This document shows positions 34,770 through 50,919 of a stretch of DNA of 50,920 nucleotides, piece by piece (positions within the stretch are counted from its first letter, which is position 1; every line of letters starts with the position of its first letter). The position numbers were made by a program, and so were the translations under genes. Under the pieces are notes generated by a model. That model was not told the origin of the DNA and did not search any database. It saw only the letters and a list, made by a program, of their open reading frames with translations. Source of the DNA: Hyphomonadaceae bacterium (lineage in GTDB: Bacteria; Pseudomonadota; Alphaproteobacteria; Caulobacterales; Aquidulcibacteraceae); contig JAIELK010000021.1 in NCBI GenBank assembly GCA_019753175.1, forward strand, positions 1-50,920, read 5' to 3'.

Positions 34770-34775
34770 ATACTG

Positions 34776-34805
34776 TTGAAGAAACAACCGCTTGTGCGCT
34801 AAGAT
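34776..34805 (+). promoter_or_regulatory. Promoter of the element-borne tRNA-Leu
   Basis: TTGAAG (34776-34781), an 18-base spacer and TAAGAT (34800-34805) begin 6 bases after the integrase stop and end 9 bases before the tRNA. The spacing fits transcription starting almost at the tRNA 5' end, independent of the integrase. Confidence 0.5.
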
Positions 34806-34814
34806 GCATACCTT

Positions 34815-34899
34815 GCCCCTGTGGTGGAACTGGTAGACGCGCCGGATTCAAAATCCGGTACCGCAAGGTGTGTCGGTTCGATTCCGACCGGGGGCACCA
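34815..34899 (+). tRNA. tRNA-Leu (anticodon CAA), complete
   Basis: 85 bases including encoded CCA. The acceptor GCCCCTG pairs with CGGGGGC (one G-U). The anticodon stem is CCGGA/TCCGG with loop TTCAAAA, so the anticodon is CAA. A long variable arm typical of tRNA-Leu is present, and the T-arm is GTCGG-TTCGATT-CCGAC. The sequence differs clearly from the split tRNA-Leu 1.4 kb upstream, whose 5' half cannot pair with this 3' half (mismatches in acceptor and anticodon stems). It therefore looks like a separate, element-carried gene. Confidence 0.95.
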
Positions 34900-35060: not shown

Positions 35061-35732
35061 CTATTCCTTCGATTCTTTGAGAATCCAACCGAACACAACG
35101 GCAGCGACAAGCGCGCCGACCAGTTGCGCGCCGATGAAAGTTGGCGCGGACGCGGGCGCTATGCCCGCAAAGGTGTTTGAGAAACTTCTAGCAATAGTCA
35201 CAGCAGGATTTGCGAATGACGTTGAGGCCGTGAACCAGTATGCGGCGGTGATGTAGAGACCGACGCCCACGGCCACAAAATCCGGCTTGAAACGTACAGT
35301 CCCCAAAATCGTCGCGACGAGTCCGAAGGTCGCGACGAATTCGGAGAAGGCTTGCGCGGGACCATCCCGCAGCTTCTCCGAGACCTGCATCAGAGGTTCT
35401 GCGAACATCGCGTGCGCGGCGATCACGCCGACAAGTGCGCCCGCGATCTGCACGACCATGTAGAAAAACGCGTCGAGGAAAGGCAACTCGCGCCGCAGCG
35501 TTGCCACCAGCGTCACAGCAGGGTTGAAGTGCGCCCCCGAGATCGGGCCGAATATCGTGATGAGCACGACGAGCGCCGCACCCGTCGCCAGCGTGTTGCC
35601 AAGCAAGGCGAGCGCGACGTTTCCGCCGGAAAGACGCTCGCCCATGATCCCGGAACCAATGACGACAGCCAGCAGAAGCGCGGTTCCGAGCGCTTCGCTG
35701 ACCAGTCGCCTTGTGATGGAGAAACGCGCCAC
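35061..35732 (-). CDS. aqpS: Aquaporin/MIP-family channel of the ars operon (AqpS-like)
   Basis: 223 residues with six membrane segments and two NPA boxes (residues 70-72 in HFNPAVT and 175-177 in FANPAVTIARS). The second NPA is followed by Val, not the Arg that normally forms the selectivity filter, suggesting a wider pore. In Sinorhizobium, AqpS within an ars operon lets arsenite made by ArsC leave the cell down its gradient. Here it is the last gene of arsR-arsI-arsC-aqpS, and no ArsB or Acr3 pump is seen. Arsenic transport is inferred from context and family. Confidence 0.85.
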   Translation of the reverse strand: MARFSITRRLVSEALGTALLLAVVIGSGIMGERLSGGNVALALLGNTLATGAALVVLITIFGPISGAHFNPAVTLVATLRRELPFLDAFFYMVVQIAGALVGVIAAHAMFAEPLMQVSEKLRDGPAQAFSEFVATFGLVATILGTVRFKPDFVAVGVGLYITAAYWFTASTSFANPAVTIARSFSNTFAGIAPASAPTFIGAQLVGALVAAVVFGWILKESKE

Positions 35733-35734
35733 GC

Positions 35735-36286
35735 CTACGGCGTCGGGCCGCTATTTGGCGCGTCAGGTTTGCGCCCGATTTTGTCCATTTCCTGCTTCAC
35801 CGCCAAGCGGTCGAGCGAGGCAATCGGGAGGGCGCACAAGACTTTGATGCGGTTCGCCATCATCCGGTAGGTGTCGGCGAACGCGAGCGCGATTTCAGAA
35901 TCCGTGCCTGTGACCGCCGCAGGATCGGGCAAGCCCCAATGCGCGGCGACGGGTTTACCCGGCCACACAGGGCACGTTTCGTTGGCGGCGTTGTCGCAAA
36001 CGGTGATGATGAAATCGAAATGCACGGCGTCCGCGCCAGCGAACACGTCCCACGATTTCGAGCTGAATTGCGTCGTGTCATAGCCCATGCTGTCCAGCAG
36101 CTTGAGCGTCTGCGGATGCACTTCGCCCTTGGGCATCGAGCCCGCAGAATAGGCTTTGAATTTGCCGTTACCCATACGGTTCATAAGCGCTTCCGCGATA
36201 ACCGAACGCGCGGAATTGCCCGTACAGAGAAATAGTACATTGAAGGGTTTGTCAGGTGTACCCTTGCCTTTGAAGTCATCTTTCAT
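35735..36286 (-). CDS. arsC: Arsenate reductase (low-molecular-weight phosphatase type)
   Basis: 183 residues from the ATG at 36286; the longer open frame upstream is not coding-like. The phosphatase P-loop CTGNSARS carries Cys21 and Arg27. DNAANETCPVWPGKP is typical of the thioredoxin- or mycothiol-coupled LMW-PTP-type ArsC group. It reduces As(V) to As(III) in the cytoplasm. It lies 28 bases after arsI and 2 bases before aqpS, so reduction and export are coupled in one operon. Confidence 0.93.
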   Translation of the reverse strand: MKDDFKGKGTPDKPFNVLFLCTGNSARSVIAEALMNRMGNGKFKAYSAGSMPKGEVHPQTLKLLDSMGYDTTQFSSKSWDVFAGADAVHFDFIITVCDNAANETCPVWPGKPVAAHWGLPDPAAVTGTDSEIALAFADTYRMMANRIKVLCALPIASLDRLAVKQEMDKIGRKPDAPNSGPTP

Positions 36287-36314
36287 GGGAGCCCCACTAA
36301 TGTTGTTTTTGTTG

Positions 36315-36770
36315 TCAACAGCATGCGGCTGCTTTCGTTTTTGTGGTTTCCGTGCCGCAGCACGCCCCTGAAGATTGTTTTTCCTCTGACGCGTCCTCGC
36401 CGTAAGTCGTCGCTTCGCCGTGGGTGAAGAAGGTTTCCCAACGCAAGCCCGACGGATCGGAAACCCACGACTTGTCGGACTTCGCATAGCAGCAGTTTGT
36501 CGCCTCCTGATCGAACGTGTGTTCGCCAGCGGCCTTGAGGCGGTCGGACAGCACGGCCAGTTCGGCGCGGTCATCGACCTGTATGCCGATATGATCGACG
36601 CCGGGGGTGACGCCGCGCGCCGAGATCGCGAAGTTCACGCGGGGGTCTTCAAGCATCCACTTGGCGTAGTCGTCCTTCACGACGGAAGGCTCGACGCCGA
36701 ACAGGGTGGAATAAAAGCCAATCGACTTCGAGAGATCATCGACCGCGACGTGGACGTGCATACGTTTCAT
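36315..36770 (-). CDS. arsI: ArsI/CadI family VOC dioxygenase (C-As lyase)
   Basis: 151 residues from the ATG at 36770, which overlaps the arsR stop (ATGA). The predicted metal ligands are His5, His60 (DHIGIQV) and Glu112. The vicinal pair Cys93-Cys94 in TNCCYAKSDKSW is the arsenical-binding signature of ArsI, which cleaves the C-As bond of trivalent methylarsenicals using Fe(II) and oxygen. The C-terminal tail adds two more vicinal Cys pairs (137-138, 150-151). CadI of mycobacteria is the same family. The family is certain; the substrate is inferred. Confidence 0.9.
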   Translation of the reverse strand: MKRMHVHVAVDDLSKSIGFYSTLFGVEPSVVKDDYAKWMLEDPRVNFAISARGVTPGVDHIGIQVDDRAELAVLSDRLKAAGEHTFDQEATNCCYAKSDKSWVSDPSGLRWETFFTHGEATTYGEDASEEKQSSGACCGTETTKTKAAACC

Positions 36771-37153
36771 GCGGACACCTTTTTGCGAGTTGGAGCTTTG
36801 ACCTTCACAGGCGGGCAGCAAGCCGCAGCGCTGGAGACCACGCCCGCTAGCGGCGCGCACACTTCCGGCGCGCCGTTGCAGCAATCGGCCATGAGGAAGT
36901 TGAGCAACGTACTCATGGCGGCAAAGTCGGCAGTGTAGATGATCGAGCGGCCTTCGCGGCGCGAGGCGACGAGGCCCGCGTTGGCGAGGACGTTCAGATT
37001 TGCCGACAGAGAGTTCGGCAACACGTCCAAGCGGCGGGCGATCTTCCCTGCGGGCAGGCCGTCAGGTCCGGCCTTCACGAGAAGGCGGAATACGGCCAGT
37101 CGGCCTTCTTGGCCGAGCGCGGAGAGACAGACAATGGCATCTGCGGATTTCAT
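36767..37153 (-). CDS. arsR: ArsR-type arsenic-responsive repressor
   Basis: 128 residues from the ATG at 37153. The winged-helix domain occupies about 1-88, with recognition helix region PAGKIARRLDVLPNSLSANLNVL. Cys91, Cys92 and Cys99 just after it form a likely As(III) site, as in ArsR types with C-terminal cysteines; another pair is at 112-113. It should repress the arsR-arsI-arsC-aqpS operon and release on arsenite. The dyad at 37158-37177, directly upstream, is the probable operator. Confidence 0.92.
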   Translation of the reverse strand: MKSADAIVCLSALGQEGRLAVFRLLVKAGPDGLPAGKIARRLDVLPNSLSANLNVLANAGLVASRREGRSIIYTADFAAMSTLLNFLMADCCNGAPEVCAPLAGVVSSAAACCPPVKVKAPTRKKVSA

Positions 37154-37157
37154 ACTT

Positions 37158-37177
37158 CGATATTCGTGGAAATATCG
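37158..37177. promoter_or_regulatory. ArsR operator (inverted repeat)
   Basis: CGATATT-CGTGGA-AATATCG is a perfect 7-bp inverted repeat with a 6-base spacer, ending 5 bases before the arsR ATG. A TTGCAA (37183-37188) just beyond could serve as -35. The position would block transcription or translation start when ArsR is bound. Confidence 0.7.
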
Positions 37178-37245
37178 ATTCGTTGCAAGGGCTATTGTTT
37201 TCCAGAAGAAACCCGCGCCAGATTGCTCCGGCGCGGGCGAACAGC

Positions 37246-37452
37246 CTAGCGGGGCTGGAAGCCCGGCTTCGGGTAGCGTCGCAGGAAACGGGCAATCGCT
37301 TCGTCGATGATGCGCAAACTGATTGCGATATGCGGACACTCTTCAAGTGTCAGGCCGCTGCTGACGAGATCGCTCAGGATCGCGTAACGCTTTGCGCGCA
37401 ACTGTTGCTCGGTCAAACCTTCGAGTTCGGATGCTGTGATGATGTAGGACAT
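37246..37452 (-). CDS. Small hypothetical protein of the element
   Basis: 68 residues with no recognised domain. An AGGAGAAG ribosome-binding site 9 bases before the ATG supports a real gene. The sequence is mostly helical, with two amphipathic stretches (about 8-31 and 40-59) and a basic C-terminus. It lies upstream of arsR on the same strand, but the ars promoter and operator come between them. It may be a small DNA-binding or regulatory protein; this is a guess. Confidence 0.6.
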   Translation of the reverse strand: MSYIITASELEGLTEQQLRAKRYAILSDLVSSGLTLEECPHIAISLRIIDEAIARFLRRYPKPGFQPR

Positions 37453-37771: not shown

Positions 37772-38431
37772 ATGTCGCAATGGGAGTTGCTTGTCACCGA
37801 GGGACACGTGCGCGCCGCACGATGGCGCAACGCTGTTCCTTTCGTGCTTTCGGCAGCGGTGATCGCCGTCGCCATTGGCGTCGCCGTCACCGCGTTCTTG
37901 CCGCAAGCGCCACCATCCACCCGCGTCGCCGATGCTCAAAATGCGCTTGTCGCGCAGCATCGCGCCGCCATAGTCGCCTTCTTGCAGGACAAGGGGGTGA
38001 TGCAAAACACCCCCGCCAATGCGGAACGCGCGCTCACCCGCGAAAGCGCGCCAACGAGCGTGGCCGCGCTTCTACAGGCGCTCAACACCACGGGGCGCTT
38101 GCCGGACTCCGTGGTGACGCAGAACGCCGAAGAGTTCTGGCAAGGCGCTTGGCAGAGCGGCGCGATTCACGCCGTGCAGGAAGGCCGCACGGTGCTGGTC
38201 GGCTACTACGTTGACGCCGCCATGCGCTATCCGGGCTATCGCCCGCAACCGATGTTGCAGCGCGCTTATGGCGTCTTGCGGCGCGGCGCTGAAAGGCAAT
38301 GGGCTTTCTATTGTCTTCAGATCGCGGGCGCGCAGCCCTGCGATCAGCAAGCCGTCGATCCATCAACGATCCCAGCGACGATGCGCGATTTCGTGCCAGC
38401 GTCCGCCTTTGCCACGGAGAGACAATCGTGA
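37772..38431 (+). CDS. Single-pass membrane protein of the mobilisation module, unknown function
   Basis: 219 residues. A short cytoplasmic N-terminus, one membrane segment (about 21-43) and a largely periplasmic domain of about 170 residues are predicted. The periplasmic part has two Cys (in FYCLQIAGAQPC) that could form a disulfide. I recognise no family. Its stop overlaps the coupling-protein start (GTGA), so the two are made together, and it may be a partner or anchor of the coupling protein. It could also be a distant relative of a conjugation-channel component. Confidence 0.75.
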   Translation: MSQWELLVTEGHVRAARWRNAVPFVLSAAVIAVAIGVAVTAFLPQAPPSTRVADAQNALVAQHRAAIVAFLQDKGVMQNTPANAERALTRESAPTSVAALLQALNTTGRLPDSVVTQNAEEFWQGAWQSGAIHAVQEGRTVLVGYYVDAAMRYPGYRPQPMLQRAYGVLRRGAERQWAFYCLQIAGAQPCDQQAVDPSTIPATMRDFVPASAFATERQS

Positions 38432-41037
38432 CCGTGCAAATGCTCATGGCCTTCGTGCCATTCGCCATCGGCGCAGCCGTGCTGATTGCGCTGCTGCTGA
38501 TACCCTTCACACGCAGCATCATCGTGGGTTTGATCAGCATCGTTCCCGCGTTCGCGCTGTTCGTGATCGGCCTTGTGGCGAGCGTCCTTTGGACGCCGAC
38601 AATGTGGCTGGTCGCGCGCGTTCCTCTTCTTGGCCGCGTCGGCGATTTGTTCGCCGCCTCTATCGAGCGATTGGGCAAGCGCAAGGTTGGCGTCGCCGCT
38701 GGAGACCGCCCTGCCATCGCGCAAGAGATGTGGCCGGAAACGCGCTTCCCTTTTCTCTACAAGGAAGTTCCTGACGACATTCGCCGCCCTCTGTGGGAGG
38801 ACGGCAAACTCGTCGGCGGTCGAGAAATTCCTTGGATGGCCGACCGCCATTTCAGCGCGGGCATGACCAAGGCCGCTGGCCAGTTGGGTCTCGTGGCCGC
38901 GCTGATCGCGCTCATCGTGCAGCCGCTCATCGTCGTCGGCATGATGATGTTTGCGGGGCAAGCGGGCGACGCGCCGCAAGTGCTCCTTGAGCAATTCCCC
39001 GGCGAAGAGCCGGTGTACGTTTCGGGATGGGATGTCTGGCAAACCGTCGCCGCCAGCGCTTTCGGGGCGCTGTGGCATGGCGCTCTAACCCTTGTCGGCT
39101 TGATCGCGGCGTGGCTGCTCATCGCCATAGGCATCGGCTTCATGGTCGCCACCGCTGCGGTCGAGCATTGGCGCAAGGAAGCTGCCACGCCTTACGAAGC
39201 CATTTCCAAGGACAGCCATGTGCGCTGGCCTTATCGCGCAGAAGCCCGCGCGCTCGCCCATACCGGCTATGTGCGCCAAGTGGCGCACGCCAACGGCTAC
39301 TTGCAGGGTTCGCCGCTGTTCAAGATCGGCGATGGTACGGGCACGATGCGGTTGCGCGGCGATCTCGCCGCGCCGACCAAAGGGCAGAGCATCGCGCTCG
39401 ATCGCGAGTCACTGTTCCAGCATGTGCTGGTGTTCGGCGGCACAGGCGACGGCAAGACCACCGCCATCTTGAAACCGCTGATGAACCAAGTGCTCGCGCA
39501 GCCGCAGTTCGGCGCATACGTCACCGACGCCAAGGGCGTCTTGTGGCGTGACGCCGAGAAGATTGCCGCCAGCGTCGGCCGCACCAAGGACGTGCTGCGT
39601 ATCGGCACGGGTACGGGCGAATTGGGCGTGAACATCACCGCGAAGCTCACGCCCAACCAGATCGCCGCCGCCGTGCGGTCGGTTCTCACGCAAATGGGCG
39701 GCGGCAGAGGCGATAGCTTTTGGCCCGACATGGCCGCAAACGTGATGCGGCACATGCTGACCATCGGGCGCGCCTATGCGGCGACGCCCGAAGGCCAGGC
39801 CGAAGCTAAAACGCTCAACCCCTATAGCCTCTGGTGGGCCTATCAGGCCGTGCTCGACGAGAAGCGGCTTGCGCCCGCGCTCGACGCCATAGGCAAGGAG
39901 ACGACCGGCCAACTTGTGCGGATGGAGACGGCGCGCGCGGCGGGCGACCGTGACGGCTTCACTCGCCACGAGGAACGCACCCGCCAACTGGCGGGCGCCG
40001 ATGTCGTCGCCAGCCACGCTTATCTGACCCAAGCATGGGCAGAGATGGCGAAGGACACCAAGACCGGCATCGTCGCCAACATCTCGCAGTTGATGGACGG
40101 CTTTGCGGGTGCGCCGATCTTGCGCGAACGCTTCGTGAGCGGGTTGGACGCCAACACCGCGAACCTTGATGCCCCGCTCAACGGCAAGATCGCGCTTATC
40201 ACCCTCAACACGATGGACGACGGCCTTCAGGCTCGCCTTGTGGCGATCCTCTTGAAGACCGTCCTCTATCGGGAAGCGCGGCTGCGGGAAGCCGACATGA
40301 AAAAGTCGGGCGGCAACCCGCAGGACAATCCCTGCCTTGTCGTCATGGACGAGGTGCAGGAATTGGCCACGGTCGATCCGACGACCGGCTTGTCCGACGC
40401 GACGTTCTGGAACGTCGCCCGCTCGACCGGCCTTGCGGGTGTGTTCGCCACCCAGACGGTCGCGGCGCTCACCCAAGCGATGGGCAAGGACGCCGCCGAA
40501 AACTTCATGCAACAGGCACGGAGCAAGGTGTTCCTCCGCTCGGAAGATCAGGCGACGGTTTCCTACGCCTGTTGGGTGGCGGGCGAGTTCGAGCGCAACC
40601 GCGTTTTCGGGGACGGCCAATGGGAAAGCATCGACCAGCGGAAGCTCATTAGCGGCTGGTCGCCATTCGAGCCGGTGGACGATTTCGCTCCACCGACAGA
40701 TGCGGGCGGGCCGCAATTTTATTTCAAGGCGGCGCGCGGCTTCCTTGGGCGGGCATCCATCGGGGCGGCGTCAGCCAAGCCCACCTACGAGACAGACACT
40801 CGGTTCATCCCCGAAGGCGGCGATCAGGCGGCGCAACTCGCAGCCATAAGCGCCCAGCAGCAAGCGGCATGGCGGCAGGAGGATCAGGACCGCCGCTATC
40901 GCACCGAAGGCAACACGACAGCCCCAGCGATGACCCCTGCGGACTTCATCGCAATGGGACGGTGGCACGCCTACGCCCACGTTCAGAGGGCGGGATTGGC
41001 GCGGCAAGACGTGATCGAGTTGGCGCACAGCTTTTGA
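38428..41037 (+). CDS. VirD4/TraD-like type IV coupling protein
   Basis: 869 residues from the GTG at 38428. Hydrophobic segments lie at about 8-50 (two passes), 153-177 and 213-245. The cytoplasmic ATPase domain has Walker A GGTGDGKT (337-344) and Walker B CLVVMDEVQEL (Asp641, Glu642). Such proteins bring the relaxase-DNA complex to the secretion channel and pump DNA. The large, multi-pass N-terminal region is more elaborate than that of VirD4 and recalls TraD/DotL-type coupling proteins. The gene overlaps the upstream membrane protein gene by 4 bases. Confidence 0.88.
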   Translation: MTVQMLMAFVPFAIGAAVLIALLLIPFTRSIIVGLISIVPAFALFVIGLVASVLWTPTMWLVARVPLLGRVGDLFAASIERLGKRKVGVAAGDRPAIAQEMWPETRFPFLYKEVPDDIRRPLWEDGKLVGGREIPWMADRHFSAGMTKAAGQLGLVAALIALIVQPLIVVGMMMFAGQAGDAPQVLLEQFPGEEPVYVSGWDVWQTVAASAFGALWHGALTLVGLIAAWLLIAIGIGFMVATAAVEHWRKEAATPYEAISKDSHVRWPYRAEARALAHTGYVRQVAHANGYLQGSPLFKIGDGTGTMRLRGDLAAPTKGQSIALDRESLFQHVLVFGGTGDGKTTAILKPLMNQVLAQPQFGAYVTDAKGVLWRDAEKIAASVGRTKDVLRIGTGTGELGVNITAKLTPNQIAAAVRSVLTQMGGGRGDSFWPDMAANVMRHMLTIGRAYAATPEGQAEAKTLNPYSLWWAYQAVLDEKRLAPALDAIGKETTGQLVRMETARAAGDRDGFTRHEERTRQLAGADVVASHAYLTQAWAEMAKDTKTGIVANISQLMDGFAGAPILRERFVSGLDANTANLDAPLNGKIALITLNTMDDGLQARLVAILLKTVLYREARLREADMKKSGGNPQDNPCLVVMDEVQELATVDPTTGLSDATFWNVARSTGLAGVFATQTVAALTQAMGKDAAENFMQQARSKVFLRSEDQATVSYACWVAGEFERNRVFGDGQWESIDQRKLISGWSPFEPVDDFAPPTDAGGPQFYFKAARGFLGRASIGAASAKPTYETDTRFIPEGGDQAAQLAAISAQQQAAWRQEDQDRRYRTEGNTTAPAMTPADFIAMGRWHAYAHVQRAGLARQDVIELAHSF

Positions 41038-41233: not shown

Positions 41234-41515
41234 GCAGGGGCTTCGCCCCATGCACCCGACCAAAGAGCGTATCCTGCCCTTTGGAAACCTGAGCGGGAGG
41301 TTCGTTCCCGCTTCCGACCGAAAGGGCGTTCCTGCCCTTTGGAAACCAGACCGGGGGTGTTCGACCCCGGCGACGATCAAAGGGCTTTCGCGCCCCTTGA
41401 GACCACGACCAAAGCGGCCTTCGCGCCCTTTGGAAACCCGACCAAGGTTTCGGCCTTGGATACGACCAAAGGGCTGTACCCCCTTTGGAAACCCCGCGCG
41501 GCTGGGATGCCGCGC
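41234..41515. repeat. Array of about ten alternating hairpins upstream of mobC (candidate oriT)
   Basis: Type A hairpins share the stem CCAAAG(GG)/(CC)CTTTGG followed by AAACC: 41260-41284, 41321-41340, 41380-41398 (degenerate), 41409-41433 and 41466-41488. Type B hairpins lie before, between and after them, with different stem sequences but full pairing: 41234-41253 (GGGG), 41292-41312 (AGCGGGA), 41351-41370 (CCGGGG), 41442-41459 (CCAAGG) and 41496-41515 (GCGCGGC). Conserved pairing with changing sequence suggests selection on structure. No ribosome-binding site or credible protein is present. Confidence 0.8.
41270..41277 (+). other. oriT: Nick-site-like sequence (TATCCTG|C)
   Basis: TATCCTGC matches the MOBP/VirD2 nick consensus YATCCTG|Y. 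It lies in the loop of the first type A hairpin (41260-41284), 300 bases upstream of mobC and the relaxase gene. A second type A loop has the shortened form TTCCTGCC. The match is short and could arise by chance, but position and hairpin context support it. Confidence 0.5.
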
Positions 41516-41572
41516 CGCCGCCCACGACGCCCTTGGCTTTTCGCGCAACGCGCGACGAAGAAGGGATAGCAC

Positions 41573-41932
41573 ATGGCGAGCGGCAGCGAGCTACGACGAC
41601 GAACAGCCACCTTCACGGTGCGCGTTACACCCGAAGAGCGGGACGCCATCGACGCGCTCGCCATGCAAAAGGGCCTCACGGTCGGCGCGTTCTTGCGCGC
41701 CGCAGCATTGGGCGACAAAGGCCCGCGCGCCAAAACCCGCATCCCCGTGGACGAGGCATTGCTCCGCCGTCTCCTCGGCCAGACCGGCAAGATCGGCGGC
41801 AACCTCAACCAGATCGCCAAGCAGCTCAACAAGGGCGGCGCGGTGGCAACGCCCGACGTGCTGGCCGCCGTCGCGGAATACCGGCAGTTGCGCCAAGCCA
41901 TTCTGGCCGCCTTGAGGACACCGACGCGGTGA
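41573..41932 (+). CDS. mobC: MobC-like relaxosome accessory protein
   Basis: 119 residues. An N-terminal ribbon-helix-helix-like segment (about 12-48, TFTVRVTPEERDAIDALA) precedes the MobC core with GKIGGNLNQIAKQLNKGG, the family signature. Such proteins bind oriT and help the relaxase melt and nick DNA. A GAAGAAGGG site precedes the ATG. The stop overlaps the relaxase start (GTGA). The oriT-like array lies immediately upstream. Confidence 0.9.
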   Translation: MASGSELRRRTATFTVRVTPEERDAIDALAMQKGLTVGAFLRAAALGDKGPRAKTRIPVDEALLRRLLGQTGKIGGNLNQIAKQLNKGGAVATPDVLAAVAEYRQLRQAILAALRTPTR

Positions 41933-43341
41933 TTATCAAGGGCAAGAGCCGAGGCGGACCAAAACAGCTTGAGACCCACCTTCAGCGGGTGGACACCAAC
42001 GAGCGCGTCGAAGTCCTCGAAAAGCCCGCCACCGCCGCCACCATCGGCGACGCCTTCGGCGAGTGGCAGACCATCGCCGAAGGCACACGCGGGCGGTACG
42101 GCCTCTACCACGCCAATATCGACCCCGACGCCAGCTATTCCATGACCGCTGCCCAATGGACGCGCGCGGTCGATCTGCTTGAGCGCGAATTGGGGCTCGA
42201 CGGCCAGCCGCGCGTCGTCGTGCTGCACGAGAAGAACGACCGCCAGCACATCCATGTCGTGTGGCAGCGCACCGACATCGACACCATGACGCTGCTTTCG
42301 GACAGCAACAATTACGACGCCCACAAGCGCGTCGCCCGCGCTCTCGAAAAGGAGTTCGGCCACGAAGCCGTGGTGACAAAGCCCGCCGAGGAGCGCGCAC
42401 CCATCAGCCATGCTGAATGGCAACAAGCCGAGCGCAGCGGGCATGACCCGCGCGCCTTCAAAGATCAGGTGACGGCGCTCTTTCACGCCAGCGAAAACGG
42501 CGCGGCGCTCCAAAAGACGCTCGACGACCACGGCCTGATCGTCGCCCAAGGCGACCGGCGCGACTTCGTGATCGTCGATCAGGCGGGCGAGGTCTATAGC
42601 TTGGCCCGCCAGATCAAAGGCATGACCGCCAAGGATCTGCGGGGCTTCATGGCCGACGTGGACGCCGACGCGCTGCCCACCGTTGCGGAGGCGAAGGCGC
42701 TGCAAGAGCTGCGACCCGCGCTTGAACCGAAACCGCTCTCGGAAGCGCCCACCGCAACCCCGCCCGCCGAGGACGGCAAGAGCGGCGCAAAACTCGATGA
42801 GGCGCTACGCGCATGGCACGCCGAAGATATGCAGCGGCTCGCCGACTTCCACGCGGCAGAGCGCGACCGCATTGGCGCGATGCTCGATCAGGAGATCGCT
42901 GCGAAGGTCGCTCAATCGGACGCCACGCGCACGGCGGCGCTGGAGCGATACGACGAACAGGCAGAACGCAAAGGCTTCGCCCGCGTCGTCGATGCGGTGA
43001 TCGGGTTCGTCTCGCCCGCGTGGGCTAGTCGCCGCCAAGCCGAGCGCGACGAGGCGCGCAACACCGTCGTAAAAGCACTCGACCGCGAGCACGCAGAAGA
43101 AGCAGCGCGGCTTGAGGCGGGTAAAAAGGTCGAATTGGACGATCTCGCCGAGCGCCAAGCGCAACAGGCGCGTGACCGCGAATTGGTCTTTGGAGAAGAC
43201 CTCGCGCGCCGTACCCGCGACTATGAAGAAGCGCAACGCTTCGCCGCCCAACTGGCCGAGCAGCAGCGTCAGCGCGAGCAAGCGGCGCATGAGCAGCAGA
43301 CGCAAACGGCGGGGCCGGAGCCGCCGACGAGCGCACGCTGA
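41929..43341 (+). CDS. mobA: MobA/VirD2-type relaxase
   Basis: 470 residues from the GTG at 41929. The metal-binding histidine cluster HEKNDRQHIH gives His100, His107 and His109, as in MOBP relaxases. The position usually held by the nucleophilic Tyr (near residue 17-20) reads THLQR, and the first Tyr is at 57, so His17 is a candidate nucleophile. The C-terminal half (about 285-470) is a charged helical, coiled-coil-rich region. The enzyme should nick at oriT and stay bound to the transferred strand. It is co-translated with mobC. Confidence 0.88.
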   Translation: MIIKGKSRGGPKQLETHLQRVDTNERVEVLEKPATAATIGDAFGEWQTIAEGTRGRYGLYHANIDPDASYSMTAAQWTRAVDLLERELGLDGQPRVVVLHEKNDRQHIHVVWQRTDIDTMTLLSDSNNYDAHKRVARALEKEFGHEAVVTKPAEERAPISHAEWQQAERSGHDPRAFKDQVTALFHASENGAALQKTLDDHGLIVAQGDRRDFVIVDQAGEVYSLARQIKGMTAKDLRGFMADVDADALPTVAEAKALQELRPALEPKPLSEAPTATPPAEDGKSGAKLDEALRAWHAEDMQRLADFHAAERDRIGAMLDQEIAAKVAQSDATRTAALERYDEQAERKGFARVVDAVIGFVSPAWASRRQAERDEARNTVVKALDREHAEEAARLEAGKKVELDDLAERQAQQARDRELVFGEDLARRTRDYEEAQRFAAQLAEQQRQREQAAHEQQTQTAGPEPPTSAR

Positions 43342-43704: not shown

Positions 43705-46512
43705 ATGAACCCCGTAGAAATCGAGCAAGCCGTCTCCGCGCTGGCGGAACAGCCGTTTGATCCGGCGGAGTTTCCGTACGCCTTCCTTGAGGCGTTCGGC
43801 AACAAGGAAACCACCATCAAGAAATTGCGCGCGGGCGCGTCGAACTCTTCCGATGTCGGTGGCGTCCTGCAACGCAACCATATCCACATCGCCGTTGCGG
43901 CCTCTGGTGAGGTCACGAAAACGCTTACCGCACTTCGCGCCAGTCCGGCCACCGCCAAGGCAAAGGCGCGGTTCATTCTCGCCACCGACGGCGCGGATTT
44001 CGAGGCCGAGCATCTCGATACAGGCGAGACTATCGCTTGTGCCTACATCGACTTCTCCAATCATTTTGGCTTCTTCTTGCCATTGGCTGGCCTCTCCTAC
44101 ACCACGGAAATAAAGGAGATTGAGCTGGATATGAGAGCGGCGCGCCGCCTCAACCAGCTCTACGTGAAACTGCTAGAGGAGAACCCCGATTGGGCGACGG
44201 CCGAACGCCGCCCTGACATGAACCACTTTATGGCGCGGTTGATCTTTTGCTTCTTCGCAGAAGACACCGACATTTTCGGTGAGAATGCAAACTTCACAGC
44301 CAAAGTGGAAGAAATGAGTGCCCGCGACTCGTCTGACACGCACGAGATTATTGGCGAGATTTTTCGGGCGATGAATACGCCGACCAAGCATGAAGGACGG
44401 CCCGATGATCGCTACCGTCGCGCTGCCGGCATTAAGAAGTGGGCCGACACGTTCCCTTATGTGAACGGTGGGCTGTTCTCTGGCAAGATGGACGTGCCGC
44501 GATTTAGCAAGATCGCCCGCTCATACTTTCTACACATCGGCAGTCTCGACTGGCGAAAGATCAATCCAGATATTTTTGGCTCGATGATACAGGCAGTCGC
44601 CGATGATGAAGAGCGCGGCGCGCTTGGAATGCACTACACCAGCGTTCCCAACATCTTAAAGGTGTTAAACCCGCTTTTCCTCGACGACCTACGAACACGG
44701 TTGGAGGAGGCAAGCGACAATGGGCGCAAGCTGCTCAACCTTCGCAACCGCATGTCAAGAATCAGAGTTTTCGACCCAGCGTGCGGTAGCGGCAATTTCC
44801 TCGTCATCGCCTACAAGGAAATGCGAGCGATAGAAGCTGAAATAAACCGTCGCCGAGATGAAGCCGACCGTACTTCTGAAATTCCTCTCACAAACTTCCG
44901 TGGCATCGAGCTACGCGACTTTCCCGCCGAGATCGCGCGTCTAGCGCTCATTATCGCGGAATATCAATGTGACGTTCTATATCGCGGACAACAGCTTGCG
45001 TTGGCTGAGTTTCTGCCACTCGACGCTGAGAACTGGATCACCTATGGCAACGCCCTGAGATTGGATTGGCTCTCCATCTGTCCGCCAAACGGCACAGGTG
45101 TGAAGCTCGTTGCAGATGATCTTCTCGAAACGCCGCTCGACCAAGCGCAAATAGACTTCGAGAACGAGGGCGGCGAGACCTACATCTGTGGGAACCCGCC
45201 GTACTCAGGAAAAGGGAAAAAGGAAGATCAGCACTTAGACGACATGAGCTTCGTCTTTGAGGGGCTTACCGACAAGTTCGGCTACGTGGACTATGTGGGT
45301 TGCTGGTTCGTCCGAGCGGCTGATTATTGCCGCAAGACAAAGGCGGTTGCCGCCTTGGTTGCCACGAACTCCGTTTGCCAAGGGCGGCAACTGCCGCAGC
45401 TCTGGCCTCATGTGCTGGGAAAAGACATCGAGATCGTTTTTGCCCACTTGTCCTTCAAGTGGGCTAACAGCGCCGCAAGAAACGCTGGGGTCACTTGTGT
45501 GATCGTCGCCATCGCCGAGAAGAGCCGCCAAACTAAAAAGTTCATATACGGGAGTGACTTTTCACGAGCGGTCTCAAACATCAACGCATACCTCATCGAC
45601 GGTGCCGATCTGTTTGTCGAAAGTCACCCGACGCCTCATTCCGTTTCCCTCCCGCAGATGCAGACAGGGAGCGTCCCAAACGACGGAGGCAATCTAATTC
45701 TCGACACCGAGGAAGTGCGGTCTCTGAGTGCTGCGTTTCCCGAGGCGACGCAGTTCATCCATCCGTTTTTTGGTTCGCAAGATTATTTGCAGGGACAGAC
45801 GCGCGCATGTCTCGTCATTCCCGATCAGCAACTAGCGCTCGCCCGTAGTATTCTTCCCATCTCAGAACGTCTCGACCGCGTGGCCAGCCTTAGAGCGGAG
45901 AGCAAAAAGAAAGAGACGCGCGAGCAATTATCCAAAGTGCCCCACCGCTTTCAGCACCGAGGCGAGATTCCGACGCAGAGAGTAATCATCATCCCATCTG
46001 TGAGCTCCGAGCGCCGTGAGTGGTTTCCAGTTGGGCTTCTGCCAGCCGAAACGGTGGTGTCGAACCTTGCGTTCATGGTGAGTGACGCGCCCCTTTGGAA
46101 TATGGCACTGCTTGCGTCGCGGTTACACCTCGTTTGGGTTGCGACCGTCTGCGGCAAACTGAAGACGGACTACCGATATTCCAACACGCTCGGCTGGAAC
46201 ACTTTTCCCGTTCCAACGCTGACCGACAAGAATAAGGCCGACCTAACGCGCTGCGCGGAAGATATTTTACTTACGCGCGAGGTGCATTTCCCTGCGACGG
46301 TCGCCGACCTCTACGATCCAGATGAAATGCCGCGCGATCTGCGCGAGGCGCATGAGCGCAACGACGAGATTCTGGAGCGCATCTATGTTGGCCGACGATT
46401 TAGGAACGACACGGAACGGCTGGAAAAACTCTTCGACCTATACACCAAGATGACCGCCGCAAACGCCACAAAGAACGGCGCGAGAAAGAAAAAAGCGGGG
46501 GCAAACACATGA
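43705..46512 (+). CDS. Large DNA adenine-type methyltransferase, MmeI family without evident nuclease motif
   Basis: 935 residues. The N-terminal region (about 1-340) follows the MmeI-like layout (FLEAFGNKETTIKKLR, ARFILATDGADFEAE, MNHFMARLIFCFFAEDTDIF). The N6-adenine methyltransferase domain has the SAM motif DPACGSGNFL (Asp357) and the catalytic NPPY (497-500). The C-terminal third (about 600-900) should hold target recognition. The D...ExK nuclease motif of type IIG MmeI enzymes is not visible, which fits a modification-only role with separate helicase and nuclease genes. The stop overlaps the helicase start (ATGA). Confidence 0.88.
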   Translation: MNPVEIEQAVSALAEQPFDPAEFPYAFLEAFGNKETTIKKLRAGASNSSDVGGVLQRNHIHIAVAASGEVTKTLTALRASPATAKAKARFILATDGADFEAEHLDTGETIACAYIDFSNHFGFFLPLAGLSYTTEIKEIELDMRAARRLNQLYVKLLEENPDWATAERRPDMNHFMARLIFCFFAEDTDIFGENANFTAKVEEMSARDSSDTHEIIGEIFRAMNTPTKHEGRPDDRYRRAAGIKKWADTFPYVNGGLFSGKMDVPRFSKIARSYFLHIGSLDWRKINPDIFGSMIQAVADDEERGALGMHYTSVPNILKVLNPLFLDDLRTRLEEASDNGRKLLNLRNRMSRIRVFDPACGSGNFLVIAYKEMRAIEAEINRRRDEADRTSEIPLTNFRGIELRDFPAEIARLALIIAEYQCDVLYRGQQLALAEFLPLDAENWITYGNALRLDWLSICPPNGTGVKLVADDLLETPLDQAQIDFENEGGETYICGNPPYSGKGKKEDQHLDDMSFVFEGLTDKFGYVDYVGCWFVRAADYCRKTKAVAALVATNSVCQGRQLPQLWPHVLGKDIEIVFAHLSFKWANSAARNAGVTCVIVAIAEKSRQTKKFIYGSDFSRAVSNINAYLIDGADLFVESHPTPHSVSLPQMQTGSVPNDGGNLILDTEEVRSLSAAFPEATQFIHPFFGSQDYLQGQTRACLVIPDQQLALARSILPISERLDRVASLRAESKKKETREQLSKVPHRFQHRGEIPTQRVIIIPSVSSERREWFPVGLLPAETVVSNLAFMVSDAPLWNMALLASRLHLVWVATVCGKLKTDYRYSNTLGWNTFPVPTLTDKNKADLTRCAEDILLTREVHFPATVADLYDPDEMPRDLREAHERNDEILERIYVGRRFRNDTERLEKLFDLYTKMTAANATKNGARKKKAGANT

Positions 46513-48584
46513 CCGAAGACAAGAAATCTATCCCATCCATCTCCGTCACCTACGCGGGCAATGGCGCTTCAACCAAGTCGAACGCGCTTGGTATGCGCGC
46601 TATGCAGGAACGCGCATATGAGAAGCGCGGCGAGCAGTATCTCCTCATCAAGTCGCCGCCCGCATCGGGCAAGAGCCGCGCGCTCATGTTCATTGCGCTC
46701 GATAAGCTCGCCAATCAGGGTATCAAGCAAGCCATCGTTGTCGTGCCAGAAAAGAGCATCGGCGCGAGTTTCAATGACGAACCGCTGTCCAAGTACGGCT
46801 TTTGGGCAGACTGGCGCGTAGAGCCTAAGTGGAATCTCTGCAACGCGCCCGGCTCGGACAACGGCGGCAAGGTCAATTCCGTCGAGGTGTTTCTGGCAAG
46901 CCAAGACAAGGTGCTGATTTGCACCCACGCTACATTCCGCTTTGCGATGGACAAGTTTGGCGTGGCGGCGTTCGACGACCGCCTGATCGCCATTGACGAG
47001 TTCCACCACGTATCGGCAGACCCCGAGAGCAAGCTCGGCCAGCACCTCGGCCAGCTTATCGCCCGCGACAAGGCGCATATCGTGGCGATGACGGGTTCGT
47101 ATTTCCGTGGCGACGCCGTGCCGGTGCTCGCGCCGCAGGATGAGGCGAAGTTCGATTCCGTCACCTACACCTACTATGAACAGCTCAACGGCTACGAATA
47201 TCTAAAGCAACTCGACATCGGCTACTTCTTCTATTCGGGTTCGTATCTCCGCAAGGATGGCGCGACCGACAAGACGATTCTTGATGTTCTCGATGCGAAC
47301 GAGAAAACCATCGTTCACATTCCCAACGTCAACGCGCGCGAGAGCACGAAGGACAAGATCAAGGAAGTTGAAGAAATCATCGGCGGCCTCGGCACTTGGG
47401 AAGGCATCGACCCCGCCACAGGTTTTCAACTGGTCAAAACACCTGCGGGCAAAACGCTTCGCATCGCCGATCTGGTCGATGACGACCCCAACAAGCGCGA
47501 CCGCGTTTCGCAAGCCCTGAAGGACGGCGCGCAGAAGAACAACCGCGATCATGTTGACATCATCATCGCGCTTGGCATGGCCAAGGAAGGCTTCGACTGG
47601 ATTTGGTGCGAGCACGCCCTGACAGTCGGCTATCGTTCCAGTCTCACCGAGATCGTGCAGATTATCGGGCGCGCGACCCGCGACGCACCGAACAAAGTCC
47701 GCGCGCGCTTTACCAACCTGATCGCCGAGCCAGACGCTTCCGCCGAGGCCGTGACCGAGGCAGTCAACGACACGTTGAAGGCCATCGCCGCCAGCTTGCT
47801 CATGGAGCAAGTTCTTGCACCGCGCTTCGAGTTCAAACTCAAAACGCCGCAAAGCGGGCCGACAGCCGGTTTCGACTACGGCGAAGGAGGATATGATCCC
47901 TCGAAGTCCAATGTCGGCTTCAATCAACAGACAGGACAGTTCGAGATCGAGATTAAGGGGCTTGTGACGCCCTCCAGCAAAGAGGCGACGCGCATCTGTC
48001 AGGAAGACTTGAACGAAGTGATCGCCGCCTTCGTGCAGGAAAAGGCCGTGTTGGAACGCGGCCTGTTCGATCAAGAGCTTGTGCCCGAAGAACTCACGCA
48101 GGTTCGTATGGGCAAGATCATCAAGGATAAGTACCCCGAATTGAGCGAAGACGATCAAGAGGCTGTGCGTCAACACGCCATCGCCGCGCTCACTCTGACT
48201 CAGGAAGCCAAGAAACGCGCCCTCGGCGGCGAGAACGAGCCAACGTCCAATACCGCCTTTGTCGATGGCGTGCGTCGGTTCGTGAATGTCCGCGATCTGG
48301 ACATCGACCTCATCGACCGCATCAACCCGTTCGGCGAAGCCTATGCCATCCTCGCCAAGACGATGAGTGAGGAAAGCCTCAAACAGGTGCAGGCGGCGAT
48401 CTCCGCGAAGAACACCGCGCTGACGCCCGACGAAGCGAAAGAATACGCCAAGCGCGCCGTGCAGTTCAAACGCGACAGAGGCCGCGTTCCGTCAGCAACC
48501 GCCGCCGACGCATGGGAACGCAAGCTGGCTGAGGGTGCAGCCGCTTTCATGCGCTTCAAGAAAGAGGGTCGCTATGGCGAATGA
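46509..48584 (+). CDS. SF2 DEAD/DEAH-like helicase of the defence module
   Basis: 691 residues. Walker A is SPPASGKSR (Lys55), motif II is DEFH (163-166) followed by His, motif III is MTGS (near 196), and motif VI QIIGRATRD (near 385). The C-terminal 250 residues are helical with no recognised domain. Restriction systems use such motors to translocate on DNA. It overlaps the methyltransferase gene by 4 bases and the nuclease gene by 11, so the three proteins are very likely one complex or pathway. Type I HsdR or type III Res subunits carry a fused nuclease; this one does not appear to. Confidence 0.88.
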   Translation: MTEDKKSIPSISVTYAGNGASTKSNALGMRAMQERAYEKRGEQYLLIKSPPASGKSRALMFIALDKLANQGIKQAIVVVPEKSIGASFNDEPLSKYGFWADWRVEPKWNLCNAPGSDNGGKVNSVEVFLASQDKVLICTHATFRFAMDKFGVAAFDDRLIAIDEFHHVSADPESKLGQHLGQLIARDKAHIVAMTGSYFRGDAVPVLAPQDEAKFDSVTYTYYEQLNGYEYLKQLDIGYFFYSGSYLRKDGATDKTILDVLDANEKTIVHIPNVNARESTKDKIKEVEEIIGGLGTWEGIDPATGFQLVKTPAGKTLRIADLVDDDPNKRDRVSQALKDGAQKNNRDHVDIIIALGMAKEGFDWIWCEHALTVGYRSSLTEIVQIIGRATRDAPNKVRARFTNLIAEPDASAEAVTEAVNDTLKAIAASLLMEQVLAPRFEFKLKTPQSGPTAGFDYGEGGYDPSKSNVGFNQQTGQFEIEIKGLVTPSSKEATRICQEDLNEVIAAFVQEKAVLERGLFDQELVPEELTQVRMGKIIKDKYPELSEDDQEAVRQHAIAALTLTQEAKKRALGGENEPTSNTAFVDGVRRFVNVRDLDIDLIDRINPFGEAYAILAKTMSEESLKQVQAAISAKNTALTPDEAKEYAKRAVQFKRDRGRVPSATAADAWERKLAEGAAAFMRFKKEGRYGE

Positions 48585-49758
48585 CCTCGATCTTGATGAA
48601 CTTGCGGCCGAGCTGTCGGACTTCGCGCCGCCGGAAGAAAGTGGCGGGCGCTCGCCGCGCGAGGAGCGCATCATCGCGGGCTTTGAAGAAATCCAGCGGT
48701 TCGTCGATCAGCATGGGCGCAATCCGCAACATGGAGAGGAACGCGACATATTCGAGCGGCTTTATGCAACACGCCTCGACCGTATGCGCGCGCTTGAAGA
48801 ATGCCGAACCATTCTGTCGCCGCTCGACCGTCAGGGCCTTTTGGCCGGAGCCGAAAACGCCCCCGTCACTCCTGTGGAGACGATGGAAGACGACGAGCTT
48901 ATGGCCGAGTTGGACGGCTTGGGCGGTGGAGAGGATATTACCGAGCTTCGCCATGTCCGCGCCGCCGCTGACAAGCGCGCCGCCGAGGAGATTGCCAATC
49001 GCACGCCTTGCGCGGACTTTGAGACCTTCCAGCCATTATTCGAGAAGGTGCAGCGAGAGCTTGCGTCCGGCGTCCGTCAAACGCGACGCTTTGAGCGTAA
49101 GTCAGAAATCGAGGCGGGCCGCTTCTATATCGTCGGCGGACAAAAAGCCTATGTGGCCGCGATGGAAGAGCCCAAATCGAATGAACATGGCACGCTTGAT
49201 GCGCGTCTGCGCGTGATCTTCGACAATGGAACGGAGAGCAACTTGCTCATGCGTTCATTGCAGAAGGCGTTGCAACAAGATGAGACGGGACGCAGGATTC
49301 TTGAGACGTCCGCTGGGCCTCTGTTTGCGGACGAAGCCGATGATGACGATTTGGCCAGCGGCTTTATCTACGTTCTCCGCAGCAAGTCAGACCTTCCCGC
49401 TGTTGCCGCGCACCGCGACGTACTGCACAAAATCGGCGTGACGGGCGGCGACGTAAAGAAACGTCTGGCGAACGCCAAGCTCGACCCGACTTTCCTCATG
49501 GCAGACGTTGAGGTGATTGCCACCTACGAGCTTTTCAACATCAACCGCACCAAGCTGGAAAACATCATTCACCGCGTGTTCGATCCCGCGCGGCTCGACA
49601 TTGAAATCAAAGACCGCTTCGGCAATCCCATCGTGCCGCGTGAGTGGTTTTTGGTGCCTATCTTCGTCGTCGATGAAGCCGTCGAGCGCATCAAGGACGG
49701 TTCGATCACGAATTACGTCTATGATCCTGCCAGCGCGCGCCTCGTTCCGACTCGTTGA
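48574..49758 (+). CDS. GIY-YIG (T5orf172/MUG113-like) nuclease of the defence module
   Basis: 394 residues from the ATG at 48574. The N-terminal half (about 1-250) is acidic and helical, with no recognised domain. The C-terminal domain (about 264-375) fits the T5orf172 branch of GIY-YIG nucleases: FIYVLRS, then KIGVT (286-290), the catalytic-type Arg297 (KKRLANA) and Glu329 (TKLENIIH), ending in REWFLVP. It probably supplies the cutting activity missing from the methyltransferase and helicase. The start lies inside the helicase gene, 11 bases before its stop, with AAAGAGGG as ribosome-binding site. Confidence 0.87.
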   Translation: MANDLDLDELAAELSDFAPPEESGGRSPREERIIAGFEEIQRFVDQHGRNPQHGEERDIFERLYATRLDRMRALEECRTILSPLDRQGLLAGAENAPVTPVETMEDDELMAELDGLGGGEDITELRHVRAAADKRAAEEIANRTPCADFETFQPLFEKVQRELASGVRQTRRFERKSEIEAGRFYIVGGQKAYVAAMEEPKSNEHGTLDARLRVIFDNGTESNLLMRSLQKALQQDETGRRILETSAGPLFADEADDDDLASGFIYVLRSKSDLPAVAAHRDVLHKIGVTGGDVKKRLANAKLDPTFLMADVEVIATYELFNINRTKLENIIHRVFDPARLDIEIKDRFGNPIVPREWFLVPIFVVDEAVERIKDGSITNYVYDPASARLVPTR

Positions 49759-49760
49759 AC

Positions 49761-49779
49761 GCCATCGGGAATCGATGGC
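49761..49779. terminator. Short hairpin after the nuclease gene
   Basis: GCCATCG-GGAAT-CGATGGC is a perfect 7-bp stem starting 2 bases after the nuclease stop and followed by TTCTGTG. It could be a weak terminator of the methyltransferase-helicase-nuclease operon. The lack of a real T-run keeps confidence low. Confidence 0.35.
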
Positions 49780-49897
49780 TTCTGTGCGTGCCCACGGCTC
49801 TTCGTTGGGTATGACGCCGTTTCCGCTAGCTTCATGTTTTTTCTACATAATACCGGCGCGGGGGTATTTTCACCGTGCGTTAAGGCCTGATGTCGTC

Positions 49898-49903
49898 TAG
49901 AAT
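49898..49903 (+). promoter_or_regulatory. Possible -10 element of the AAA+ ATPase gene
   Basis: TAGAAT lies 23 bases before the ATPase start, in an AT-richer stretch of the 168-base gap. No good -35 is seen at the right distance. A small dyad (CGTCT/AGACG) surrounds it and could be an operator. The ATPase may thus be transcribed separately from the nuclease operon. Confidence 0.3.
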
Positions 49904-49926
49904 AAAAGACGAACAAGAGCGGAGCT

Positions 49927-50919
49927 ATGCCCACAGCCGACCAGATCAAAGCCTTGCTCTCATCCCACGCAGAGGGTGATGAGGCGCAGTTTTTCTCCAT
50001 CGCAATGCAGATTGCGGCGGCGGAGGCGCGTCAAGGCCACGGCAAGTTCGCGCAGGAACTTCGCGCCATCATCGACAAGAGTAAGAGCCGGTCGAGCGTC
50101 GCGGCGATCACGCCCATACCACTCGCAAAACCGCGCGGCGAACTCGCCGACGTTCTGTCGGCTTCGTACCCAAAGACTAAGCTTGCCGATATGGTGCTGG
50201 GCAAGGCGCTGGAAGAGCGGCTGCTGCGCGTCATCCGTGAGCACAAGGCTGTTCGCACCATTCGTAGCCGAGGGCTTGCGCCTCGGCGCAAGTTGCTCCT
50301 CGTCGGCAAACCCGGCACAGGCAAGACGCTGACCGCTTCAGCGTTGGCGGGTGAACTCGGGCTTCCGCTCTTCGTTGTCCGCCTCGACGGTCTCATCACA
50401 AAATACATGGGCGAGACCTCCGCCAAGCTGCGCTTGGTGTTCGACGCGCTCAATCAATCGCGCGGTGTTTATTTCTTTGACGAGTTTGACAGCATCGGCG
50501 CGGAACGCGGCCTCGGGAATGATGTCGGCGAAATCCGCCGCGTCGTGAACAGCTTCCTCCAGATGGTCGAACAGGACGGTTCGGACAGTCTCGTGATCGC
50601 AGCAACCAATCACGTTGGCTTGCTTGATCGCGCCATGTTCAGGCGCTTCGACGACATCATCGAGTTCGATCTTCCCGACGAGCCGCAAATCAAGCTCTTG
50701 TTGCGCGCCAAGCTCTCCGGTTTCAGCACGCCGAAGATGCGCTGGGCGGACGCGGCCAAAACCGCCGTCGGCCTGAGTTACGCTGACATCGTTCGGGCGA
50801 CCGAAGATGCGATCAAGACGGCGCTGATCGAAGAGCGTGAGGTTATCAAGATCGGCGACCTGACGGCCTGCATTCGTGAACGCAAGGCCACCATCACCGG
50901 CGGAAGTGGCTCTCCCTAA
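49927..50919 (+). CDS. AAA+ ATPase, probably of a defence gene pair
   Basis: 330 residues, complete; the stop is one base before the window end. A helical N-terminus (about 1-115) precedes a classic AAA module: Walker A GKPGTGKT (127-134), Walker B VYFFDEFD (Asp185, Glu186), sensor 1 Asn228 (AATNH) and arginine fingers near 239-240 (FRRFDD). A GAGCGGAG site precedes the ATG. AAA ATPases of this size and style often precede an S8 subtilisin-like protease gene in genomic islands, so the partner may lie just beyond the window. The target is unknown. Confidence 0.85.
   Translation: MPTADQIKALLSSHAEGDEAQFFSIAMQIAAAEARQGHGKFAQELRAIIDKSKSRSSVAAITPIPLAKPRGELADVLSASYPKTKLADMVLGKALEERLLRVIREHKAVRTIRSRGLAPRRKLLLVGKPGTGKTLTASALAGELGLPLFVVRLDGLITKYMGETSAKLRLVFDALNQSRGVYFFDEFDSIGAERGLGNDVGEIRRVVNSFLQMVEQDGSDSLVIAATNHVGLLDRAMFRRFDDIIEFDLPDEPQIKLLLRAKLSGFSTPKMRWADAAKTAVGLSYADIVRATEDAIKTALIEEREVIKIGDLTACIRERKATITGGSGSP

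Follow-up and report, generated by a model that had tools for sequence, protein, structure and literature searches.

The 50,920-nucleotide stretch of Hyphomonadaceae contig JAIELK010000021.1 (assembly GCA_019753175.1) analysed here, hereafter the window, carries close to its end a cassette of three plus-strand genes that encode a methyltransferase, a helicase and a putative nuclease (Table 1). The methyltransferase and helicase genes share the tetranucleotide ATGA at 46509-46512, a 4-base overlap, and the ATG of the nuclease gene at 48574 lies ahead of the helicase stop TGA at 48582-48584, an 11-base overlap; the length of 394 amino acids (aa) given for the nuclease is counted from this ATG, the open reading frame (ORF) list beginning at an upstream GTG at 48535. 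An earlier sequence-only reading of the locus had proposed these overlaps and these three protein identities. Both are borne out, the former by inspection of the two junctions and the latter by Pfam domains (five MmeI domains, DEAD/ResIII and MUG113/T5orf172, respectively), and the motifs that it had named (DPACGSGNFL and NPPY, Walker A, DEFH, QIIGRATRD and GIY-YIG) are present and conserved across related loci.

Table 1. Features of the cassette and of its neighbourhood in the window
Feature	Position	Strand	Basis
yeeA/dnmA-like MmeI-family N6-adenine DNA methyltransferase, 935 aa	43705..46512	+	MmeI_N, MmeI_hel, MmeI_Mtase, MmeI_TRD, MmeI_C; 5hr4 match
MmeI_N domain, aa 1-158; nuclease fold without catalytic lysine	43705..44178	+	Pfam, alignment
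Site of lost D-x9-ExK motif, aa 49-68	43849..43908	+	Lysine-column alignment
S-adenosylmethionine (SAM)-binding motif DPACGSGNF, aa 357-365	44773..44799	+	Kept in 64/64 methyltransferases
Catalytic motif NPPY, aa 497-500	45193..45204	+	NPP[YFW] in 61/64 methyltransferases
Target recognition domain, aa 633-839	45601..46221	+	Pfam, 5hr4 alignment; K820/D822 and L788/R824 site predictors
yeeB-like superfamily 2 translocase/helicase, 691 aa	46509..48584	+	DEAD and ResIII cores
Walker A lysine K55 of YeeB	46671..46673	+	80/80 loci
DEFH box, YeeB aa 163-166	46995..47006	+	D163, E164, H166 each 80/80
Motif VI QIIGRATRD, YeeB aa 384-392	47658..47684	+	R388, R391 80/80
yeeC-like protein, 394 aa	48574..49758	+	MUG113/T5orf172; GIY-YIG C-terminal domain
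GIY-YIG nuclease domain, YeeC aa 263-373, catalytic R297/E329	49360..49692	+	Pfam; residue conservation
Coupling protein	38299-41037		Pfam
NikA/MobC-like protein	41573-41932		Pfam
Relaxase, upstream neighbour, mobilisation module	41485..43341	+	Pfam
IetA-like AAA ATPase, next gene after the trio	49927..50919	+	PADLOC 248.5 bits; NCBIfam 203 bits

The sequence-only reading suggested looking for the same gene order in other genomes, and it recurs. Among the best 80 of at least 557 YeeB relatives in the genome collection (L018-L097; YeeB identity 72-81%), which according to record titles span Pseudomonadota, Bacillota, Acidobacteria, Verrucomicrobia, Cyanobacteria and others, a methyltransferase match lies upstream in 76 and a nuclease match downstream in 78, start codons being assigned by script and the two counts including methyltransferase fragments above 100 bits and one nuclease at 62 bits (L022). 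The loci in which a partner is missing (L027, L053, L081, L089, L092) all end within 1.1 kb of the helicase.

One of 40 listed plasmid records, out of 264 matched, is annotated as restriction/modification component YeeB, and this record led us to YeeA (DnmA), YeeB and YeeC of Bacillus subtilis. The trio is the DnmA(YeeA)-YeeB-YeeC cluster known from that bacterium and is not new. Consequently, the earlier proposal of a restriction-modification (RM) type system with one activity per protein holds as far as a three-protein RM-like set that is conserved together, and fails as to novelty, the cluster having largely been named as a defined system already (PMC7261158 and PMC9973331). These papers describe a conserved cluster that is associated with defence and may be similar to Type I systems, and report that B. 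subtilis DnmA methylates GACGAG to give N6-methyladenine (m6A). They also relate that Morgan et al. 2009 placed DnmA among MmeI homologues without an endonuclease motif and flanked by yeeB/yeeC-like genes, suggesting a Type I-like system, and that Makarova et al. 2011 counted homologues of YeeB and YeeC among the genes of defence islands. Later papers that name or reclassify the trio were not found in the open-licence literature. Compared by published description, not by sequence alignment, the window trio shares with the B. subtilis cluster the three families in the same order, a methyltransferase without an endonuclease motif, a superfamily II helicase and a C-terminal T5orf172 domain; it differs in its mobilisable context beside an IetA-like gene and in its own predicted specificity. 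The window copy appears to be a new and intact member of this cassette family.

The five-domain MmeI architecture of the window methyltransferase is complete by Pfam (MmeI_Mtase match, 3.4e-110), and the MmeI structure 5hr4 aligns to the protein almost end to end (E 4.5e-125). Across 64 methyltransferases of at least 1100 bits and free of internal stops, the three that depart from NPP[YFW] read GNPQF instead. The N-terminal domain has fared differently from that of free-standing MmeI relatives. Seven of the latter (L109-L115, chosen at 200 bits or more and thus excluding L116-L127) carry D-x9-E-x-K there, with the glutamate and the lysine visible in all seven and the aspartate in four, the N-ends of L113-L115 being cut, whereas the lysine column of the cassette methyltransferases holds lysine in 0 of 76 rows, glycine in 73, aspartate in two and a gap in one; a chance E-G-K in row L099 lies a few residues off the motif position. 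The 76 rows comprise 65 from the window and its related loci and 11 from a 192-genome class sample, and they contain the window twice (L104) and, judging by length and score, two further likely duplicates (L106/L031 and L102/L072). In MmeI, replacement of D70, E80 or K82 by alanine abolishes cutting, according to PMC4833311. To judge from these alignments, the ancestral MmeI nuclease domain is dead in the cassette, though its sequence stays conserved: in the 64 proteins the N-domain has a mean pairwise identity of 0.75, above that of the methyltransferase domain (0.69) and of the recognition domain (0.43).

The cassette resembles MmeI itself (Type IIL; 5hr4, PMC4833311) in a conserved methyltransferase and recognition framework matched over nearly the full length, and departs from it in an N-terminal PD-(D/E)xK domain without the catalytic lysine and in having its helicase and nuclease encoded separately. 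It is very improbable that the methyltransferase is a Type IIL single-chain enzyme that still cuts alone and beside which YeeB and YeeC just happen to lie. The full MmeI domain set and the Type IIG call of PADLOC 2.0.0 (908 bits; motor and nuclease have no strong model there) would be compatible with this possibility, but the PD-(D/E)xK nuclease motif of Type IIL is incomplete in the methyltransferase chain, none of the 76 rows has the lysine, YeeB and YeeC are linked in nearly all loci and covary with the methyltransferase, and work cited by PMC7261158 found no endonuclease activity of DnmA.

The covariation involves some parts of the methyltransferase and not others. Over 63 loci, pairwise distances correlate between YeeB and YeeC (0.62), between the N-domain and YeeB (0.48) and between the methyltransferase core and YeeB (0.46), none of 500 permutations reaching the value in any of the three cases. 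Against YeeB, in the same loci, neither the recognition domain (-0.01; 257/500 permutations) nor the short C-terminal domain of the methyltransferase (0.11; 56/500) shows a correlation. Close pairs weigh more here, because the recognition domains lie far apart and their distances are possibly saturated. YeeB is at least 90% identical in 22 locus pairs, which have members in common, and their recognition domains are 37-54% identical in 21 and 79% in one, the median over all pairs being 43%; L032, a near copy of L019, was excluded from the correlations, the close pairs and the slot-ORF counts given below. Loci L078 and L082, for instance, are 98% identical in YeeB, 97% in the N-domain and 89% in the core, and 37% in the recognition domain.

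Within the recognition domain, the residues equivalent to MmeI 806/808 covary (E-R in 28 proteins, K-D in 22, R-D in 13 and another pair in one; n=64), and eight-residue recognition signatures take 53 distinct forms among the 64 proteins. PMC4833311 assigns MmeI residue pairs to specific bases of the recognition site, stating that K-D at 806/808 "exclusively specifies G:C" at position 6 and that leucine at 774 limited MmeI to G:C at position 4. In the 5hr4 alignment K820/D822 of the window protein correspond to MmeI 806/808 and L788/R824 to 774/810, and because K820/D822 and L788 match these rules we predict that the window copy recognizes NNNG(m6A)G, with the methylated A at position 5. The DnmA site of B. 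subtilis, GACGAG, ends in the same three bases. Exchange of the recognition domain is expected of restriction systems that profit from new targets, and the variation seen here is difficult to reconcile with a methyltransferase that acts as a fixed regulator.

The structure model of YeeB resembles duplex translocases. YeeC consists of a helical N-terminal part, an SH3-like middle at about 165-245 (a weak fold match) and the GIY-YIG C-terminus, in which Y266, K286, G288, R297 and E329 are each invariant in 78 of 78 proteins. This conservation bears on the conclusion drawn for B. subtilis in PMC9973331, namely that the cluster is a relic in which an orphan gene-regulatory methyltransferase remains active and YeeB and YeeC no longer restrict. 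Several points speak for it and weigh against a working restriction system: B. subtilis deletions leave sensitivity to three phages unchanged and DnmA does not limit plasmid uptake (PMC7261158, PMC9973331), and broken copies exist, with damage to yeeA in L016, L035, L053, L068, L094 and L101, damage to yeeB in L062, L161, L163 and L166, and a weak yeeC in L022. A relic is nevertheless unlikely as a general explanation, for the motor residues are invariant in 80/80 loci, as are those of the nuclease in their 78, and recognition domains stand at background identity in 21/22 pairs whose YeeB proteins are 90-98% identical, which is unexpected for a fixed regulator. Moreover, PMC9973331 reports, second-hand, that Vibrio crassostreae deletions raise sensitivity to some phages and notes stretches missing from the C-termini of B. 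subtilis YeeB and YeeC. As a rule, the evidence fits a relic less well than an ATP-dependent restriction system subject to diversifying selection. It suggests that selection maintains many copies as working restriction systems and, as far as sequence can tell, gives good support to a functional restriction system with exchangeable recognition.

YeeB is patchy among 101 close relatives, in 11 genomes from 7 of 29 genera. In the 192-genome class sample, drawn evenly, MmeI_Mtase matches reach 340 bits or more in 11 genomes, the same 11 that hold a full YeeB (at least 920 bits); both genes share contig and strand in 10 and lie on separate contigs in G253, and the next seven MmeI_Mtase proteins (279-321 bits, six genomes) occur in genomes without YeeB. 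Predicted viral contigs provided 43 loci, 31 with the complete trio, nine without yeeA, in all of which the helicase lies less than 1 kb from the locus start, and three without yeeC, two of which (L163, L166) have a shortened helicase. The 264 plasmid records with a YeeB match cover at least 80% of YeeB in 154 cases, and 118 of the 264 are typed conjugative. Together with the mobilisable element in the window, whose coupling protein, NikA/MobC-like protein and relaxase upstream of the trio bear out the setting claimed by the sequence-only reading, the plasmid and viral loci could point to a plasmid or conjugation conflict system, in which the cassette excludes competing elements, not phages, on behalf of its mobile element. 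The data, however, fit restriction of plasmids and of phages alike, and we regard such a dedicated role as quite unlikely. As a separate observation, yeeA is split or fragmentary in L016:5316-7982, L035:5780-10001, L068:5450-8224 and L094:2-3620, where the helicase and nuclease frames look intact.

Among known systems, Type I RM (HsdRMS) has its methyltransferase and its motor on separate proteins, changes its recognition by modules and includes accessory genes in the operon. The cassette shares these features but has no HsdS, as the sequence-only reading had noted: Pfam identifies no such subunit among the four genes of 43705-50919, and the recognition domain sits within the methyltransferase. 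Its nuclease, of the GIY-YIG kind, is encoded by a gene of its own, whereas in HsdR nuclease and motor are fused. Type III and Type ISP enzymes have asymmetric sites, single-strand methylation and an ATP-driven motor, all of which are predicted for the cassette, which differs in being neither Mod/Res nor a single chain and in its GIY-YIG nuclease. DISARM and BREX likewise pair a related methyltransferase (DrmMI, 97.6 bits; PglX, weak) with a helicase or ATPase. The lack of the DISARM DUF1998 and PLD genes and of BREX PglZ and BrxC, also noted in the earlier reading, holds for the 17 window proteins scanned with Pfam, among which there is no DrmA- or DrmD-type helicase, DrmB, DrmC, PglZ or BrxC; nor does YeeB match any Drm model in PADLOC. 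The asymmetric one-strand m6A marking, as in BREX, and the weak similarity of the methyltransferase to PglX models and, around the SAM motif, to BrxX structures would allow a BREX-like, methylation-guided exclusion in which phage replication is blocked without cutting and YeeC has some target other than the DNA of an incoming phage. Given the lack of PglZ- and BrxC-like families among the scanned proteins, the invariant GIY-YIG residues and a PglX match of 27.6 bits against a cut-off of 500, this explanation is rather improbable.

Overall, we consider it probable that DnmA-YeeB-YeeC is an ATP-dependent RM system that arose from an MmeI-type (Type IIL) enzyme of a single chain. With the recognition domain that it carries itself, the methyltransferase would read an asymmetric site of six bases and mark a single adenine. 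Its nuclease-dead N-domain, being kept, dead and covarying with YeeB, would be a natural docking site and was most likely retained as such a surface. At unmarked sites the methyltransferase would recruit or license YeeB, as duplex translocase, and YeeC, whose GIY-YIG nuclease would then cut the invading DNA. Marking of one strand leaves one daughter duplex unmarked after each replication, so that a nuclease acting freely would damage the host; protection would follow if the nuclease fired only after the motor had travelled or had met a second complex. Two converging complexes are needed for cutting in Type III and Type ISP enzymes. The docking, the restriction and the translocation or collision step are inferred; the sequences themselves show the architecture, the loss of the old nuclease lysine, the conservation of catalytic residues, the covariation of N-domain, methyltransferase core, motor and nuclease, and the independent variation of the recognition domain.

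The methyltransferase and helicase genes abut in 33 of 76 loci, and in the other 43 (for instance L026:9171-10001, L037:605-1669 and L061:8980-9978) are separated by 0.4-4.3 kb, a variable slot that often holds a translationally coupled gene and that has no accessory gene in the window cassette. In 30 of the 43 a forward ORF overlaps the methyltransferase stop by 4 bases, in 12 an ORF stop meets the helicase start, and 10 have both junction types. Thirty slot ORFs from 27 of the 43 loci were scanned; 14 reached a Pfam cut-off and 16 did not, the families including YhcG/DUF1016 nuclease, SLFN_AlbA_2, RhuM, BrnT, AbiEii with DUF6088, PIN, DUF559 and zeta toxin. Loci L021 and L040 differ in their slots at 95% YeeB identity. 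Genes like these are known inside Type I operons, a literature search yielding nothing direct. By eye, the slot proteins L029:4146-5156, L056:8867-9964 and L066:7710-8741 look phospholipase-D-like; that of L066 matches RE_NgoFVII below the Pfam cut-off, and those of L029 and L056 match no Pfam family.

Elsewhere in the window, the contig ends at 50920, directly at the stop of the IetA-like gene, whose NCBIfam match is below the cut-off of 510 bits and whose usual partner gene would presumably fall past the contig end. Three degenerate 42-nucleotide direct repeats with the common GCCCTTTGGAAACC lie at 41256-41446, upstream of the mobC-like gene. On the minus strand, 35061-37339 contains genes for an aquaglyceroporin (MIP), a low-molecular-weight phosphatase and helix-turn-helix proteins, resembling an arsenic resistance operon. 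A tyrosine integrase gene stands immediately ahead of tRNA-Leu(caa) at 33591-34899, a possible integration site of the element; no repeat matching this site was found up to 50920.

The restriction tests in B. subtilis led to the view of the cluster as a defunct relic. The fuller proposal has, in our estimate, somewhat less than an even chance of being right: that the cassette is an active, widespread and unclassified ATP-dependent RM type, in which a dead nuclease serves as docking platform, cutting is outsourced to a motor and a GIY-YIG protein, the problem of self-damage is solved, the recognition module is exchanged and a slot accommodates interchangeable toxin or nuclease effectors. The answer would add a widespread ATP-dependent restriction architecture to those known, or remove one.

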